Source of the DNA: Caulobacteraceae bacterium
GTDB taxonomy: Bacteria; Pseudomonadota; Alphaproteobacteria; Caulobacterales; Caulobacteraceae
Direction: 5' to 3'
DNA: 64,000 nt
Assembly (NCBI GenBank): GCA_027487945.1
Contig: JAIYCQ010000042.1
Span: 1 to 64,000 of the forward strand
Both the position numbers and the translations under genes were made by a program. The notes beneath the pieces were generated by a model that saw nothing but the letters and a program-made list of their open reading frames with translations, was not told the origin of the DNA and ran no database searches. Positions 11,072-26,329 of this stretch are shown piece after piece. Numbering within the stretch: the stretch's first letter is position 1; each line of letters opens with the position of its first letter.

Positions 11072-12115
<1,044 letters not shown>

Positions 12116-19087: not shown

Positions 19088-19948
19088 ATGTGCGATGACG
19101 ACATTCACTCGGGGCTGATCGTGGACCCGACCCTGTCCCGCCGGGGCTTCGGGCTGCTGGGCCTGGCAGCCGTCGGGGCGGCCGGCGTCGCCCGGGCGGG
19201 CGTCCCGGTGGTTGGGACCGACGTCGAGATAACCACGCCGGACGGCGTCTGTGACGCGGCGCTCTACTTTCCGGAGGGCAAAGGGCCCTGGCCCGCTGTT
19301 CTGATCTGGCCCGACGTGGTCAGCCTGCGTCCGGCCTTCCGCGAGATGGGACGTCGCCTCGCCGGGGAAGGGTATGTGGTGCTGGTTCCCAACCTCTACT
19401 ACCGCGTCCGCAAGGCGCCGGTGGTTGACGGCGCCTTCGACTGGAACAGGCCCGAGGACCGGGCCAAGCTGGGCGAACTCCGCAAGACGGTGACGCCCGA
19501 AGGGACCGACCGCGACGCCGTCGCCTATCTCGCCTTCCTCGACGGCCTGAAGCAGACCGACACCGGCCGGCGCGCCGGCGTGCAGGGCTACTGCATGGGC
19601 GGCCCGCTCTCGTTCCGCACCGCCGCCGCGGTCAGCGACCGGATCGGGGCCGTGGGCAGCTTCCACGGCGGCGGCCTCTACACCGACCAGCCGACCAGCC
19701 CGCACCTGCTGCTGACGAAGACCACGGCGGAGTTCCTGGTCGCCGTCGCCGATAACGACGACAGGCAGGACCCGACCATCAAGGACAGGCTGAAGGTCGC
19801 CATGGACGCCGCCGGCCGCCGGTCGGTGATCGAGGTCTACCCCGCCGGTCACGGCTGGTGCGTTCGCGGCAGCGCCGTCTACGATGAGGTTCAGGCTGAA
19901 CGCGCCTGGGCGGCCCTGCTGGCGATGTACAGGCGCGCGCTGGTCTAG
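19088..19948 (+). CDS. Dienelactone hydrolase family protein, Tat-exported
   Basis: This 286-residue alpha/beta hydrolase carries a twin-arginine signal (SRRGFGLLGLAAVGAAGVARA). The catalytic triad reads as Cys in GYCMGG (nucleophile elbow), Asp in AVADNDDRQ and His in PAGHGWC. The Cys nucleophile is typical of dienelactone hydrolases. The true substrate is unknown because the family is broad. The stop lies only four bases before the convergent stop of the PleC-like gene, with no room for a terminator between them. Confidence 0.82.
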   Translation: MCDDDIHSGLIVDPTLSRRGFGLLGLAAVGAAGVARAGVPVVGTDVEITTPDGVCDAALYFPEGKGPWPAVLIWPDVVSLRPAFREMGRRLAGEGYVVLVPNLYYRVRKAPVVDGAFDWNRPEDRAKLGELRKTVTPEGTDRDAVAYLAFLDGLKQTDTGRRAGVQGYCMGGPLSFRTAAAVSDRIGAVGSFHGGGLYTDQPTSPHLLLTKTTAEFLVAVADNDDRQDPTIKDRLKVAMDAAGRRSVIEVYPAGHGWCVRGSAVYDEVQAERAWAALLAMYRRALV

Positions 19949-19952
19949 GCCG

Positions 19953-22448
19953 TCAGGCCGCCACGGTCGAAAAGCCGCGCCGGATCGGCAGGCTGAAGCT
20001 CACCGTGGTGCCCTCGCCGGGCGCGCTGTCCATTTCCAGCACGCCCTCGTGGAGTTCGATCAGCGCCTTGGTCAGGGCCAGGCCAAGGCCCGTGCCCTGG
20101 GTGGTCTTGCTGTGCTGGCTCTCGACCTGTTCGAAGGGCTGGGCCAGCCGCGCCAGGTCTTCGCGACTGATGCCGATGCCGGTGTCCTGCACCGAGATGC
20201 GCGCCCGCTCGCCGAAGCCGTCGTTGCGGACCTCGGCCCGGACGGTGACCCGGCCGCCCCTCGGCGTGAACTTGATGGCGTTGCTGAGCAGATTCAGCAG
20301 CACCTGCTTGACCGCCCGGTAGTCCGCCTCGATCTCGGGCAGGAAGGGGAAGTCGACGGCCAGTTCGAGCCCGGCCGCCTCGGCGCGGTTGCGCACCAGC
20401 CGAACGGCGTCCTCCGTGACGTCCTCCAGGCTCATCGGCTCGAACTTCAGGTTCATCTTGCCTGCCTCGATCTTCGACATGTCGAGGATGTCGTTGATCA
20501 GCGCGAGCAGGTGCTGGCCGCTGTTGTGGATGTCCTGGGCGTACTCCTTGTAGCGCGGGTCGCCCATCGGCCCGTACATTTCGGCGATCATGATCTCGGA
20601 GAAGCCGTTGACCGCGTTGAGCGGCGTGCGCAGCTCGTGGGACATGTTGGCCAGGAACTCGGACTTGGACTTGTTGGCCGCTTCGGCGCGGACCTTCTCG
20701 GTCTCGTACTTGCGGGCCAGCTCGGCCAGCTGTTCCTGGCTGCGTTCCAGACCTGCCACGGCGTGCTGCAGCTGCTCCTCATTCAGGCGGCGGGCTTCCT
20801 CCTGAGCCTTGATGGCGCTGATGTCGGCGGCGGTCATGACGAGGCCGCCCTCGGCGGTGCGCCGTTCGGAAATCTGGATCCAGCGCCCGTCGTTCAACTC
20901 CGCCTCGCGGATGCCGCGGTGGCCGTCGGGCCCGACGATCTCCTGCTTGATGGCCAGCTGGACGAAGCGGCTGACATAGTCGCGGGCCGCGCCAGACTTG
21001 AGCAGCTTGGGCTCGAGGTTGAAGACGCTGCGGTAGTTGCGGTTGCACAGCAGCAGCCGGCCGTTGCGATCCCAGAGTACGAAGGCCTCGGACACGCTCT
21101 CAATGGCGTCGCGCAGGCGGTTTTCGGCGGCCTGGGCGCGCGCCTGTGCGAGGCGCTCCTCGGTAACGTCGAGCGCGACGCCGATGATCCGGCCGTAGCC
21201 TTCGCTGCCTGGCGCGCCGAGGCCCTGGCCGCGGGCGTCGATCCACAGCGAGCGTCCGCCGGCCGCAGCGGGCACCCGGAACGACACGTCGAACGCGCCG
21301 TAGGTCGCCGCATGGGCCAGAGCCTGCCGGACGCGTTCGCGGTGATCGGGGGCGACACGGTCCAGCACCTCCTGGCCGCCCACTACGCCGCCGCCGCCCC
21401 AGCCGAAGATGACGCCGGTGACGTCGGACATGAACACCTGGTCCAGGTTCAGGTCCCACTCCCAGATGCCGCAGCGCGCCGCCTCTACCGCCATGCGGAA
21501 CCGCTGCTCGCTCTGCACGAAGGCGCGCTGGGCGGCCTCGGCCTTGCGGCTCTGGCTGAACAGCAGCAGCGCCAGGGCGATGCCGATGCCGAGCGGGACC
21601 AGCAGGGCGACGATGCTGTCGATCCGGTCGCGATTGGCCGCGACGATGCCGGCGGGCGGGCTGGCGGCTATGGCCCAAAGCGCGCCGCCGACCGCGGGCC
21701 TGGCCGCCACATCGATCAGCGCCCCGTCGGGCCGCCGGGCGCGGGTCAGCTGGTCGGGCTTCAGGTCGTCGGCGGACAGGGCGAAGGCCTCGCGAACGGT
21801 CGAGGCCTGGGTCACGCCCCCGGCGCCCCCCGCGGCGAGCAGGCGGCCGTCCGGAAGGGCGACCGCCGCCGACGACCGCCCCGCCGCGCGGAGCGGCAGT
21901 CGGGACAGGTCCTGGGTTGTCAGCAGCACGGTGCGGTCGCGCACCACCCGCGCGACATAGAGCCGTCCGGGGTCGCCGGCCGGTACGCCGATCCAGCTGC
22001 TTCGTCCCGAGGCGATGGCCTGACGCGCCGCGCCCTTCCAGTCGGCGGCCTCGGCCCGACCGGCCACGGCGCCGATGCCGTCGCCGGCGACCACGGCCGC
22101 CGCCAGCACGCCGTCCCCGGCGCCGCGAAGGACGGTCTCGGCCGCATCAATCGGAGAGTCCGGCGACCGGTCGATCAGGGCGACGCCGGCGGTCAGTCCG
22201 CCATTGCGGCGCGCGGCCTCGACGTCGAGGCGGGCGGCCAGCACCTGGGCCGCCGCATCGGGGCCGGCATCGCCCGGGCGGATCCAGTTCCGCTCGAGTC
22301 TCTGGACCCCGAAGAAGGTGTAGATGGCGAGCAACAGAAGTGCGGCCAGGATGACGACCCGCACCAGGCCGCCATCGGACAGGCGCGGCTCTCCCAAAGC
22401 GAAAGCGGGTTCGCCGGCCTTGCCTGCCTTGCGACTCTTCCCCGCCAA
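19953..22448 (-). CDS. pleC: PleC-type sensor histidine kinase with PAS domains
   Basis: This 831-residue membrane kinase has transmembrane helices at about residues 29-50 and 275-297 around a periplasmic domain. Two PAS segments follow (about 315-430 and 435-545), then a coiled coil. The HisKA domain has the phospho-acceptor H604 in SHELRTPLNAVNGFSEIM, and the HATPase domain has LLNLLSNAIKF, DTGIGIS and GTGLGLAL. There is no receiver domain. In Caulobacter, PleC is a polar phosphatase/kinase acting on DivK and PleD that sets swarmer fate. The size, layout and ELRTPLNAxNGFSEIM motif fit PleC, but DivJ-like or other kinases cannot be excluded. The start is a TTG at 22448 with weak ribosome binding; a GTG slightly downstream is possible. 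The upstream gap carries four GANTC sites. Confidence 0.72.
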   Translation of the reverse strand: MAGKSRKAGKAGEPAFALGEPRLSDGGLVRVVILAALLLLAIYTFFGVQRLERNWIRPGDAGPDAAAQVLAARLDVEAARRNGGLTAGVALIDRSPDSPIDAAETVLRGAGDGVLAAAVVAGDGIGAVAGRAEAADWKGAARQAIASGRSSWIGVPAGDPGRLYVARVVRDRTVLLTTQDLSRLPLRAAGRSSAAVALPDGRLLAAGGAGGVTQASTVREAFALSADDLKPDQLTRARRPDGALIDVAARPAVGGALWAIAASPPAGIVAANRDRIDSIVALLVPLGIGIALALLLFSQSRKAEAAQRAFVQSEQRFRMAVEAARCGIWEWDLNLDQVFMSDVTGVIFGWGGGGVVGGQEVLDRVAPDHRERVRQALAHAATYGAFDVSFRVPAAAGGRSLWIDARGQGLGAPGSEGYGRIIGVALDVTEERLAQARAQAAENRLRDAIESVSEAFVLWDRNGRLLLCNRNYRSVFNLEPKLLKSGAARDYVSRFVQLAIKQEIVGPDGHRGIREAELNDGRWIQISERRTAEGGLVMTAADISAIKAQEEARRLNEEQLQHAVAGLERSQEQLAELARKYETEKVRAEAANKSKSEFLANMSHELRTPLNAVNGFSEIMIAEMYGPMGDPRYKEYAQDIHNSGQHLLALINDILDMSKIEAGKMNLKFEPMSLEDVTEDAVRLVRNRAEAAGLELAVDFPFLPEIEADYRAVKQVLLNLLSNAIKFTPRGGRVTVRAEVRNDGFGERARISVQDTGIGISREDLARLAQPFEQVESQHSKTTQGTGLGLALTKALIELHEGVLEMDSAPGEGTTVSFSLPIRRGFSTVAA

Positions 22449-22455
22449 GTCCTTC

Positions 22456-22552
22456 GAATCCCCGCGCCCGAGTCACTTCCCCGACAGGGAATCTTACGGA
22501 AGCGTTCCTGTCGCGTCACGGGCCAAACCCGCCTTTGCACAGGTTGTGAGTC
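22456..22552. promoter_or_regulatory. Cluster of four GANTC (CcrM methylation) sites upstream of the PleC-like gene
   Basis: GAATC at 22456-22460, GAGTC at 22470-22474, GAATC at 22489-22493 and GAGTC at 22548-22552 all fall in the 132-base gap between pepN and the kinase gene. In Caulobacterales the CcrM methylase acts on GANTC, and GcrA activates promoters with methylated sites. Four sites in 97 bases is far above chance, so the kinase gene is probably under GcrA/CcrM cell-cycle control. Confidence 0.65.
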
Positions 22553-22580
22553 AGTTGGCCGCAGGGGAAGTGGACGCCTG

Positions 22581-25160
22581 CTAGGCCAGCGCCTTGCTGG
22601 CCAGCTCGAACACGTTCTTGGACAGGCCATCGACGGCGACAATCCGCTCCAGCTGCGCCTTCATCAGAGCCCCGAGTTCGGGACGATAGCGCCGCCAGGC
22701 CCCCAGGGGCTCGACCAGCCGCGCGGCCGTCATCGGGTTCACCGTGTCGGTGGCGATGATCTGGTCGGCCAGGAAGCGGTAGCCGTCGCCCGACGGATCG
22801 TGGAACCGCGCCGGATTGAAGTTGGCGAAGCTCGAGACCAGCGCCCGCAGGCGGTTGGGGTTTCTGCCGTCGAAGTCCGGATGGGCGGTCAGGCCGAGCA
22901 CGCTCCCCAGCGCCTGGTCGGACGGATCGCGCGCCTGGGCGGCGAACCACTTGTCGAGGACCAGGGGCTCGGCCTTCCACTTGGCATGGAAGTCGGCCAG
23001 CGCCTTGTCGCGGGCCTCGCCGCCCAGCTCGATCAGCGCGTTCAGACCGCCGATGGCGTCGGTCATGTTGGTCGCGGTCTCGAAGTGGCGGGCGGCCAAA
23101 TCGCGGTTGCCGCTGTGTGGATCGACCGCCAGCAGCTCCAGCGTCGCATTGCGCAGCGCCCGGCGGCCCGCCGAGGCGGCGTCCGGCGAGAAGGCGGCGC
23201 CGTCCGACAGGCCGGTGTGCTGGCGGCGAAGATCGTCGCCCAGATGCACCGCAAGCCGCGCCCGCAGCGCGTTGCGAGCGTCATGGATCGCCGCCGGATC
23301 GGCGGGCGCCATGGCCATCGACAGGTCCGGCTCGCTCGGCAGGGTCAGGATCAGGGCCTTGAAGGCCGGCTCGGCGGCCTGGTCGGCCAGCGCCCGGCCG
23401 ACGGCCTCCGCGTAGCGCTCCTCGGCCACCTCGTCCGGCGTCCCGGCGGCGCGAGCCAGGATCAGGTCGCGGGCCAGGCCCTGGCCGGCTTCCCAGCGGT
23501 TGAAGAGGTCCGTGTCTGCGGCCAGCAGGACGTAGCGGTCCTTGTCCGGCGTGTCGGTGGTCAGGTTCACCGGCGCCGAGAACCCACGCAGCGGCGACAG
23601 CACCGGACGTTCCGGCGCAGGCAGGCGGACGGTCGTCTCCGCCGCGTCGAGGATGACCAGCGTCTCCTCGCCCATCGGGCGGCCGTCGTCATGCAGCAGA
23701 CCGATCAGGACGGGGAGGGGCAGGGGCTTCTTGTCCGGCTGGCCGGGCGTCGGCGCGGTGTGCTGGCGCAGGGTGATGGCTACCTCGCCCTTGCCGGCGT
23801 CCCAGTCCGTGGTCAGGTCGACGGTCGGGGTGCCGGCCTGTTCGTACCAGCCAAAGAAGGCGGTCATGTCGCGGCCGGACACGTCGGCGAAGCACTGGAT
23901 AAAGGCCTCGACCGTGGTCGCCTCGCCGTCGTGGCGGTCGAAATAGAGGTCCATGCCGGTCCGGAACATCTCCGCGCCGAGCAGGATCTTGAGCATGCGG
24001 ATGACCTCGCTGCCCTTCTCATAGATCGTCGCCGTGTAGAAGTTGTCGATCTTGATGTAGGCGGACGGCCGCACCGGGTGGGCGAGCGGGCCGGCGTCCT
24101 CGGAGAACTGCCGGGCGCGCAGGGCCTTCACGTCCTTGATCCGCTGCACCGCCTCGCCGCGCATGTCGGCGCTGAACGACTGGTCGCGGAAGACGGTCAG
24201 CCCCTCCTTCACACAGAGCTGGAACCAGTCACGACAGGTGATGCGGTCGCCCGTCCAGTTGTGGAAGTACTCGTGGGCCACGACGCTTTCGATGCGTTCG
24301 TAGTCCATGTCGGTCGCGGTCTGCGGGTCTGCCAGCAGCAGGGCGGCGTTGAAGATGTTGAGGCCCTTGTTCTCCATGGCCCCGAAGTTGAAGTCGCGGA
24401 CGGCGACGATCATGAACAGGTCGAGATCATATTCCCGGCCAAAGGCTTCCTCGTCCCACTTCATGGAGCGCTTGAGGCTGTCCATGGCGTACTCGGCGCG
24501 GGCGGCCATACCGGTGTCGACATAGACGCGCAGGTCGATGGTCCTGCCGGACATGGTCACGAAGCTGTCGACCAGCTCGTCCAGCTCTCCCGCCACCAGC
24601 GCGAACAGGTAGCAGGGCTTGGGGAAGGGGTCATTCCAGACGGCGTAGTGGCGACCGCCGGGCAGGTCTCCGGTCTCGACGCGGTTGCCGTTGGCCAGCA
24701 GGCGGTCGAACGCCTTGTCGGCCTCCATCCGAACCGTGTAGCGGGCCAGGACGTCGGGCCGGTCGAGGAACCAGGTGATGCGCCGGAAGCCCTCGGCCTC
24801 GCACTGGGTGCAGAACCGGCCGCCGGAGATGTAGAGCCCCATCAGCGCGGTATTGGCCGACGGGTTGATATCGACCTCGGTCTCCAGGGTGAAGCTCGGG
24901 GGCAGGTCGGCGAGCGTCAGGGTCTCGGCGGTCTCCTCGAAGGCGTGGTCGACGCCGTCCACCGCGACCGAGAACGTCTTCAGCCCGTCGCCGTCGAGCA
25001 CCAGCGGATCGGCATGGTCGCCATTGCGCCGGACCGTCAGCTTCGCCTTCACCCGCGTCGCGGCGGGGTCGAGCGTGAAATCGAGGAAGACCTCGTCGAT
25101 CAGGTAGGCGGGCGGCCGGTAGTCGGTCAGGCGAACGGGCTGGGGCGTTTCTGTGCGCAT
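22581..25160 (-). CDS. pepN: Aminopeptidase N (M1 zinc metallopeptidase)
   Basis: It removes N-terminal residues from peptides in the cytoplasm. The 859 residues have the M1 substrate motif GAMENKG (about residue 261) and the zinc site HEYFH (H296, E297, H300), with E319 in KEGLTVF as the third ligand. Length matches the bacterial PepN type with its alpha-helical C-terminal domain (about 540-859). There is no signal peptide. It lies between the DUF2336 gene (71 bases upstream) and the PleC-like gene on the same strand. Confidence 0.95.
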   Translation of the reverse strand: MRTETPQPVRLTDYRPPAYLIDEVFLDFTLDPAATRVKAKLTVRRNGDHADPLVLDGDGLKTFSVAVDGVDHAFEETAETLTLADLPPSFTLETEVDINPSANTALMGLYISGGRFCTQCEAEGFRRITWFLDRPDVLARYTVRMEADKAFDRLLANGNRVETGDLPGGRHYAVWNDPFPKPCYLFALVAGELDELVDSFVTMSGRTIDLRVYVDTGMAARAEYAMDSLKRSMKWDEEAFGREYDLDLFMIVAVRDFNFGAMENKGLNIFNAALLLADPQTATDMDYERIESVVAHEYFHNWTGDRITCRDWFQLCVKEGLTVFRDQSFSADMRGEAVQRIKDVKALRARQFSEDAGPLAHPVRPSAYIKIDNFYTATIYEKGSEVIRMLKILLGAEMFRTGMDLYFDRHDGEATTVEAFIQCFADVSGRDMTAFFGWYEQAGTPTVDLTTDWDAGKGEVAITLRQHTAPTPGQPDKKPLPLPVLIGLLHDDGRPMGEETLVILDAAETTVRLPAPERPVLSPLRGFSAPVNLTTDTPDKDRYVLLAADTDLFNRWEAGQGLARDLILARAAGTPDEVAEERYAEAVGRALADQAAEPAFKALILTLPSEPDLSMAMAPADPAAIHDARNALRARLAVHLGDDLRRQHTGLSDGAAFSPDAASAGRRALRNATLELLAVDPHSGNRDLAARHFETATNMTDAIGGLNALIELGGEARDKALADFHAKWKAEPLVLDKWFAAQARDPSDQALGSVLGLTAHPDFDGRNPNRLRALVSSFANFNPARFHDPSGDGYRFLADQIIATDTVNPMTAARLVEPLGAWRRYRPELGALMKAQLERIVAVDGLSKNVFELASKALA

Positions 25161-25231
25161 GTCCCATATCTAGGGCAAGGCGCGGCCCGCCGCGACGGGG
25201 GATCGTCCGGAAAAGTGACCGGGGAGGCGGA

Positions 25232-26329
25232 CTAGGCCGCCGCGACATCCCCGGTCGTGCGCCGCATCCGCCAGAAGCGGATCGTGCGCAGGGCCGCCTC
25301 GCGGGGCAGGCCATTGTAAAGGTCGCCGTAGGACTTGGCCCTGGTCATCGCGTCGTCGGCGCGATCCAGGATCAGTACCGTGAAGGTCAGGAACAGGCTG
25401 CGGTCGAAGTCGGCCGCCTTGCAGACGATGGCGAGGGCGTCGAGTTCCTTGCGCTCCAGGATGCGACGGGCGGTGTGGAAGTCGATGTCGGCCATTTCGG
25501 CCAGCGCAATCAGGAACCGGGTGGTCTCGCGGTTACGCAGCATGGCGGCCAGGACCCGCGGCCCCATATCGCCCCGGGCGATCTGGGCGCGGACGGCGGC
25601 TTCCGCCTCGGCGAAGTCCGCGGGCAGGGCCCCGTCGCCCAGCGCGACGCGCTTGCGGCCGGCGGCAAGGGCCGCTTCGAGCCGGGCCGGGTCGATGGCG
25701 GCGTTGGCGCTGGTGATCCGGTCGCGCAGGCGCGCTTCGACGACGAAGTACATCTCGTTGAGCAGGTCGATCGGCAGCTGCTCTCGGCCGACAACGGCCT
25801 CATGCAGCTCGGGATTGGCCACCGCCCGGTCGACGGCCCGCTCATGGGCCCTGCGCGACAGCTCGGCGCCGCTGTTGCGCAGCAGCAGGCCCAGCGTGTC
25901 GTCGTCGCCGCGCTCGACGATGGCGTCGGACACGACCGTCGAGACGGTGGGCCGTCGGGAGATGGCCCGCAGGTGGTCCTGACCCTTTGTGCGGGCCACC
26001 TCGACCAGATCGTCGTCGCTGAGCGCCCGCGAGCGCTCCAGCACGGGGCGGGAGACCTCGATCTCGTCGGCGGCCAGCCGGCGCATCAGGCTCCGGGGCG
26101 CGGTCTCGGCGTCGGCCATGCGGTCGGCCAGCTCGGCGCGGACAGCGACCTCCATCTCGCTGGCCAGCTTGCCCAGCACGGCGTCAAACAGGCCGATTTC
26201 AGTAGCGCCATGGGCTTCGCCCGAGAAGAACATGTCCGTCACGCCGCGCAGCAGTTCGCGGCGCCGCTCGCTGGACGGCTCGTGGGCGAGCGAGATCAGG
26301 TCATGAAGTCGGCTGCCGGTCACGCTCAT
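25232..26329 (-). CDS. DUF2336 domain protein
   Basis: This 365-residue soluble, all-helical protein has no signal peptide and matches the DUF2336 family common in Caulobacterales and related orders. Typical stretches are HDLISLAHEPSSERRRELL at the N-terminus, the VSRPVLERSRALSDDDLVE segment and RFLIALAEMADIDFHTARRI. The repeated helical pairs resemble HEAT-like packing. The function is not established. Its ATG overlaps the stop of the Pro/Ala-rich protein gene, so the two are translationally coupled. Confidence 0.8.
   Translation of the reverse strand: MSVTGSRLHDLISLAHEPSSERRRELLRGVTDMFFSGEAHGATEIGLFDAVLGKLASEMEVAVRAELADRMADAETAPRSLMRRLAADEIEVSRPVLERSRALSDDDLVEVARTKGQDHLRAISRRPTVSTVVSDAIVERGDDDTLGLLLRNSGAELSRRAHERAVDRAVANPELHEAVVGREQLPIDLLNEMYFVVEARLRDRITSANAAIDPARLEAALAAGRKRVALGDGALPADFAEAEAAVRAQIARGDMGPRVLAAMLRNRETTRFLIALAEMADIDFHTARRILERKELDALAIVCKAADFDRSLFLTFTVLILDRADDAMTRAKSYGDLYNGLPREAALRTIRFWRMRRTTGDVAAA

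Follow-up and report, generated by a model that had tools for sequence, protein, structure and literature searches.

Conserved GANTC sites upstream of pleC in a Caulobacter genome very probably mark a promoter activated by GcrA on CcrM-methylated DNA

What role might four GANTC sites serve when they are crowded into the short gap that precedes a cell-fate kinase gene? The window (the whole stretch of 64,000 nucleotides that was analyzed) comes from a Caulobacter genome of 3.33 Mb, which has its own assembly (G000) and whose nearest named relatives also belong to Caulobacter. An initial annotation had noted four GANTC sites within 97 bases upstream of a ‘PleC-like’ kinase gene, and had proposed that the cluster stands out and reflects methylation-timed transcription by CcrM and GcrA. 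The four sites indeed span exactly 97 bases (22456-22552) inside the 132-base gap between pepN, whose frame ends at 22581, and the TTG codon of pleC at 22448, both genes being on the minus strand. On the forward strand these sites read GAATC (22456-22460), GAGTC (22470-22474), GAATC (22489-22493) and GAGTC (22548-22552), and a fifth site lies just inside pleC. The features of the locus are as follows, with counts taken over 76 distinct orthologous upstream regions.

22581-25160, minus strand: pepN (aminopeptidase N), upstream neighbor of pleC; TIGR02414, 1186 bits (cut-off 718)
22548-22552, minus strand: GANTC site U, some 50 nt before the -10 box; offset -55 or -56 in 9 of 76 rows
22514-22519, minus strand: predicted -35 box GTGACG, with a 17-nt spacer, from conservation over the 76 regions
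22491-22496, minus strand: predicted -10 box TAAGAT, overlapping site T, from conservation over the 76 regions
22489-22493, minus strand: GANTC site T, reading GATTC on the gene strand and sharing bases with the -10 box; kept in 62 of 76
22470-22474, minus strand: GANTC site D, reading GACTC on the gene strand, at about +10 to +15 of the predicted transcription start; kept in 73 of 76
22456-22460, minus strand: leader GANTC site, adjoining the presumed ribosome-binding region; offset 36 or 37 in 7 of 76 rows
22433-22437, minus strand: fifth GANTC site (GACTC; GAGTC on the gene strand), in the first codons of pleC, 11 nt inside; five sites in 120 bases
19953-22448, minus strand: pleC orthologue, 831 aa, TTG start, with PAS domains, HisKA and HATPase_c

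Three observations bear on the identity of the kinase. First, the protein has one match above threshold in its own genome, and a PleC search of genus genomes returned one match above threshold each in 59 of 61, the other two genomes being 70% and 76% complete. Second, the NCBIfam models for DivJ and PdhS match the kinase region only, scoring 252 and 219 bits where the respective cut-offs are 1000 and 2000. Third, the Caulobacter vibrioides orthologue (L046), when read from an ATG, places H610, T614 and F778 within 842 aa; we take H610 and 842 aa to be the values for C. crescentus PleC. The pleC alleles T614R and F778L are printed in PMC7010744, where a plasmid is also written T615R. The positions of T614 and F778 in the C. 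vibrioides orthologue agree with PleC, and the earlier ‘PleC-like’ label can be made more specific: the window kinase is the PleC orthologue, as opposed to DivJ or PdhS. TTG seems to be the start codon in the window clade (22446-22448) and, judged by eye, perhaps in Phenylobacterium, while the residue numbers of C. vibrioides suit a more downstream ATG.

The surroundings of the gene offer several further observations. At L003, L004, L005, L007, L032 and L035, approximately 1.2-1.8 kb separates pepN from pleC, versus 132 bases in the window, and the promoter block remains with pleC in close relatives that have this wider spacing. The gene upstream of pepN (25232-26329, minus strand) matches the SpbR model (E 5.7e-35) with 121 bits, below the cut-off of 400. 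An open frame of 1783 aa runs antisense over pleC and pepN (19884-25235, plus strand) and is most likely an artefact of high GC content.

How unusual is the cluster in its own genome? GANTC is scarce in the window, with 72 sites observed versus 278 expected from dinucleotide shuffles, and a genome sample composed of the window and 40 stretches (796 kb, 24% of the genome) holds 984 sites in 796,071 bases, or one per 809. The background is therefore sparser than the one site per 300 or more bases that was first supposed. This scarcity agrees in direction with the genomic depletion of GANTC that PMC3973325 describes, together with over-representation in intergenic DNA, for Alphaproteobacteria with CcrM. 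Four sites within at most 97 bases occur at two distinct places in the sample, the pleC gap and L180:11997-12060, so similar clusters are not spread over many unrelated regions of the 796 kb; five sites in 120 bases occur at pleC only. When sites were placed uniformly over the 796 kb in 2000 runs, four in 97 bases arose somewhere in 19% of runs and five in 120 bases in 0.7%. Density by itself is only moderately surprising and would be suggestive; the case that the cluster is non-random is made by conservation among orthologues, rather than by density.

The second dense place in the sample consists of four GANTC sites in 64 bases (contig C16 of G000) upstream of an EipA-family gene (11408-11992, minus strand), where we also take a TTAAC-type repeat to resemble a CtrA site. 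Of 57 genomes that matched, 30 were compared in the region upstream of the eipA-like gene: at least one GANTC falls within 150 nt in 20 of these 30 and at least two in 13, and four sites are present only in the window genome and a relative 95% identical to it (L194). At two of the 30 loci (L204 and L208) the end of the stretch and the start codon do not coincide, the locus being cut near a contig end. The proposal that this cluster is as general as that of pleC was rejected, as it is not conserved likewise among the 30 loci. The sample's other places with three sites in 97 bases include the ccrM leader, which has three GANTC sites in 24 bases (L192:11903-11926, contig C46 of G000), just before ccrM at 11948; the neighbor of ccrM is presumably mutY.

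To assess conservation, we collected 110 pleC loci (L002-L111), of which 30 came from whole genomes and 80 from genome contigs. Fourteen were left out for a match starting after residue 45, a frame running off the contig, or fewer than 200 nt upstream, and the 96 retained were collapsed to 76 distinct upstream regions from Caulobacter, Phenylobacterium and kin. A common frame was established by eye and by script: GTGAC(G), then 17-18 nt, then TAAGATTC, TAGATTC or TAGACTC, and then GANTC. The -35 element starts with GTGAC in 67 of the 76 rows and with TTAACG in seven, and the spacer is 17 nt long in 45 rows and 18 nt in 31. The script picked the best -35/-10 pair for each row, which leaves five rows with a score of 8 uncertain (L094, L095, L099, L102 and L104).

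Site D, defined as a GANTC located 14-26 nt downstream of the first base of the -10 box and mostly GACTC, is present in 73 of the 76 rows, the exceptions being L094, L095 and L099. Site T overlaps the -10 box in all but 14 rows. A GANTC between the -35 and -10 boxes (site S) occurs in 26 of 76, and T or S is present in 71, leaving five rows with neither. The orthologous upstream regions thus keep their sites, and loss among close relatives was not seen: L003 and L032, which are 93-94% identical to the window, retain all five. The outermost sites have a narrower distribution. All rows with site U (L002-L005, L007-L010 and L032) belong to the window's own clade, and the leader site is found in L002, L003, L006, L009 and L032 of this clade and in L057 and L058 of another. 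In a Phenylobacterium-type clade, nine rows (L064, L065, L068, L071, L073, L075, L078, L085 and L098) carry a ladder of four GANTC sites, positioned upstream of the -35 box, in the spacer, at the -10 box and at D, with steps of 15, 15 and 15-19 bases.

The manner in which these sites vary is also informative. D is preceded by T in 69 of 73 rows and followed by G in 72 of 73. Its middle base is other than C in 12 of 73 rows, all of which retain GA-TC, and T is kept in two registers relative to the -10 box with three different middle bases. On a PleC tree of 75 of the 76 rows, built by a quick method and with some long branches, the state of D changes at least three times and that of T at least six times; at least five changes affect the middle base of D and at least four the register of T. 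Such changes of middle base and register are as expected if GA-TC itself is the conserved unit. Replacement of T by S, in which loss of the former is compensated by gain of the latter, was rejected: independent pairs gave no support (median p of 1), with too few pairs to reach 0.05. The main clade lacking T (L011-L016 and L045) has S.

The C. crescentus clade (for example L017, L019, L029 and L044) has a second conserved block, which lies upstream of the -35 box. It resembles TTGCGACCAATAGGCTCA and contains GCGAC, 66 nt before the -10 box and approximately 78 nt before the predicted start; PMC4287350 gives GCGAC as the SciP motif and locates it at -78 in ctrA P1. Judged by eye, the window clade carries site U in the block that matches this one.

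Several controls indicate that the enrichment is particular to GANTC and to pleC. Relative to the remainder of these loci, GANTC is enriched 25-fold in the promoter core of the 76 regions, counted from -60 to +45 around the -10 box, whereas the next of 24 pentamers of the same composition, GTNAC, reaches 9-fold and is itself part of the -35 GTGAC. At least two GANTC sites fall in the 145-nt start region at 62 of 66 pleC loci (61 of 66 when the search used the window protein), compared with 5 of 23 for the best other gene family and 1 of 59 for pepN. Twenty families were chosen for this comparison and 18 are reported (n of at least 10), one of them pleC, which leaves 17 controls; a narrower earlier comparison used three control genes. 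Among the 39 of 76 loci that are at least 12 kb long, the pleC region is densest in 23 and densest or tied in 33; another place is denser in six of the 39, which counts against our main reading. Elsewhere in the 796 kb sample, the combination of a GTGACG/TTGACG-like -35 box with TA(A)GANTC occurs once (L190:11719), without D.

The signal extends over other genera of the family. In 32 hand-picked genomes covering all 20 genera, with guessed start codons, 28 have at least one GANTC no more than 60 nt from the earliest candidate start (7% expected per region), and 20 have two within 120 nt. Outside the family it fades: among candidate orthologues from eight genomes, the corresponding counts are four and two. 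This fading, like the rows without D or T, weighs against our main reading. These 40 genomes were hand-picked from matches in 80 of 89 and 70 of 80, and at least four of the 32 overlap the 76 rows (L140, L153, L161 and L164 equal contigs L102, L107, L104 and L094).

Are the components for methylation-dependent activation available? The genome encodes GcrA (E 1.6e-56, with a near full-length match to GcrA of PDB 7ye1 at E 1.3e-83) and CcrM (E 7.6e-211 to CcrMI of PDB 6pbd, with a RAMA domain). Two properties looked for in a GcrA/CcrM promoter, namely both regulators in the genome and sites kept among orthologues, are thus present. T and D also lie within about 15 bp of the transcription start predicted from conservation, inside the approximately 40 bp used to recognize such promoters. 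A strict sigma-70 consensus scan of the pleC upstream region returned no promoter, which counts against reading it as one, and for this reason our promoter call is based on conservation; an empty scan would nevertheless suit a weak promoter in need of an activator.

Published work on C. crescentus provides the functional counterpart. In PMC3667746 (Fioravanti et al. 2013), PpleC-lacZ activity is given as approximately 60% lower on GcrA depletion, promoters with mutated GANTC sites, PpleC among them, as crippled by 60-80%, and efficient GcrA binding as needing CcrM at 80 loci that include pleC. According to the review PMC7403470, GcrA binds domain 2 of sigma, recognizes methylated promoter DNA and speeds promoter opening. 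Taken together, it is very probable that the cluster represents a weak sigma-73 promoter of pleC that is activated by GcrA on CcrM-methylated GANTC sites. In the window species this reading is based on how well the observed sites are conserved and on a genome that encodes both gcrA and ccrM, while the dependence of pleC on GcrA and on GANTC, and of GcrA binding on CcrM, would carry over from the C. crescentus experiments of PMC3667746.

Our working model is as follows. The pleC promoter would be of a weak housekeeping-sigma type (GTGACG, 17 nt, TAAGAT, at positions predicted from conservation), and CcrM, which methylates GANTC, would also methylate these exact sites. GcrA, riding on domain 2 of sigma, would recognize the methylated sites and help RNA polymerase to open the promoter, so that pleC expression is tied to the presence of GcrA. 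T, at the -10 box, and D, some ten bases past the start, would form the conserved working core and may divide the labor between them, and sites U and leader would be lineage-specific additions.

We also entertain, tentatively and as somewhat doubtful, a more specific arrangement in which GcrA grips methylated GANTC at two points, in the -10 region (T or S) and at D, and thereby brackets the open complex. In this reading, the near-invariant element across Caulobacter, Phenylobacterium and kin is D instead of the upstream site. On hemimethylated ctrA P1, PMC3667746 describes two stretches of 12 nt covered by GcrA: one over the -35 region and a second, bound with lower affinity, that begins at +5 and comes near the expected position of D at pleC. 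If such a grip exists, the usual attention to the -35/-10 region misses the most constrained contact, and a strict scan for the extended motif YGAKTCK overlooks most pleC core sites.

This motif has been proposed for GcrA activation in C. crescentus, and none of the five window sites fits it, which speaks against our main reading. Among orthologues it is matched by 12 of the 62 T sites and by 2 of the 73 D sites, and some match is found within -100 to +50 in 35 of 76 regions. At C. vibrioides L017, the sites at offsets 2, 22 and 44 miss it and only the far-upstream one (-98) fits, so the C. vibrioides pleC core departs from YGAKTCK despite the GANTC dependence of C. crescentus PpleC given in PMC3667746. 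We treat YGAKTCK as a proposed preference, not as defining GcrA/CcrM promoters. According to PMC7987155, it is also not preferred in B. subvibrioides, and most C. crescentus GcrA targets are not common to that species, a further point against our main reading; the comparative scan of that study used YGAKTCK, and ‘pleC’ is absent from its main text. Because few T and D sites fit the motif, a strict scan could underrate pleC.

Three alternatives were weighed. The first is a switch timed by replication, as proposed for ctrA P1, in which passage of the fork leaves the sites hemimethylated and thereby switches pleC on or off at a fixed moment. Precedents exist in C. crescentus, where a GANTC between -35 and -10 accompanies activation at 40-60 min at other promoters (PMC4287350) and where GcrA footprints differ between hemimethylated and fully methylated ctrA P1 (PMC3667746). 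The latter source, however, classes PpleC as ori-distal and states that a change in methylation should not correlate in time with activation of such promoters, for which it puts forward licensing or quality control up to the point at which GcrA is expressed. We consider a timed switch unlikely. CcrM/GcrA control, as put forward in the initial annotation, is well supported by the encoded regulators, the kept sites and the dependence of C. crescentus PpleC, but the word ‘timed’ goes beyond this evidence.

A second alternative is that the sites are kept through overlap with ordinary promoter elements or with the site of another factor, and that their methylation is incidental. T does overlap the -10 box, and the conserved flanks of D could belong to another protein's site. 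But the two registers and three middle bases of T, and the retention of GA-TC where the middle base of D varies, are at odds with this proposal, as is the requirement of C. crescentus PpleC for GANTC and GcrA, with CcrM-dependent GcrA binding (PMC3667746); we regard it as very unlikely. Finally, chance clustering in a single intergenic gap could draw on the uniform-placement runs and on the second cluster upstream of the eipA-like gene, but its probability is vanishingly small, since the counts for D and T, along with the gene-family control, already refute it.

GcrA/CcrM control of pleC was already known from C. crescentus, and the conclusion that a real and strongly conserved promoter is present here is well founded. 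In the open-licence full texts searched, we did not find a family-wide GANTC geometry of pleC with a near-invariant downstream site. PleC helps to decide between the swarmer and stalked fates, and its methylation-dependent promoter appears to have kept a similar geometry over much of the family; the GcrA regulon as a whole is reported in PMC7987155 to be rewired between Caulobacter and Brevundimonas. The comparison singles out one downstream GANTC, site D, as the most constrained.

The closest known system is C. crescentus PpleC itself, an orthologous promoter of an orthologous gene. C. vibrioides L017, whose upstream region is identical to that of L046, has T and D in the same geometry, although its -10 box is TAGATT with an 18-nt spacer, whereas in the window TAAGAT follows a 17-nt spacer and T lies one base later. 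Unlike C. crescentus PpleC, the window also has clade-specific upstream and leader sites. In the C. crescentus mutants all GANTC sites of the fragment were changed jointly, and thus the acting site was not singled out. Among CcrM-activated promoters described in PMC3708114, GANTC is located between -35 and -10 (ftsZ) or near the start (mipZ) and is required for full activity, whereas pleC combines a site at the -10 box with another downstream of the start. Like pleC, ctrA P1 has a promoter-proximal GANTC, at approximately -29 (PMC4287350), and its GcrA footprint over -35, with a weaker one from +5, comes near the position of D. The two nevertheless differ in consequence, as mutation of GANTC leaves ctrA P1 activity unchanged and cripples PpleC (PMC3667746).
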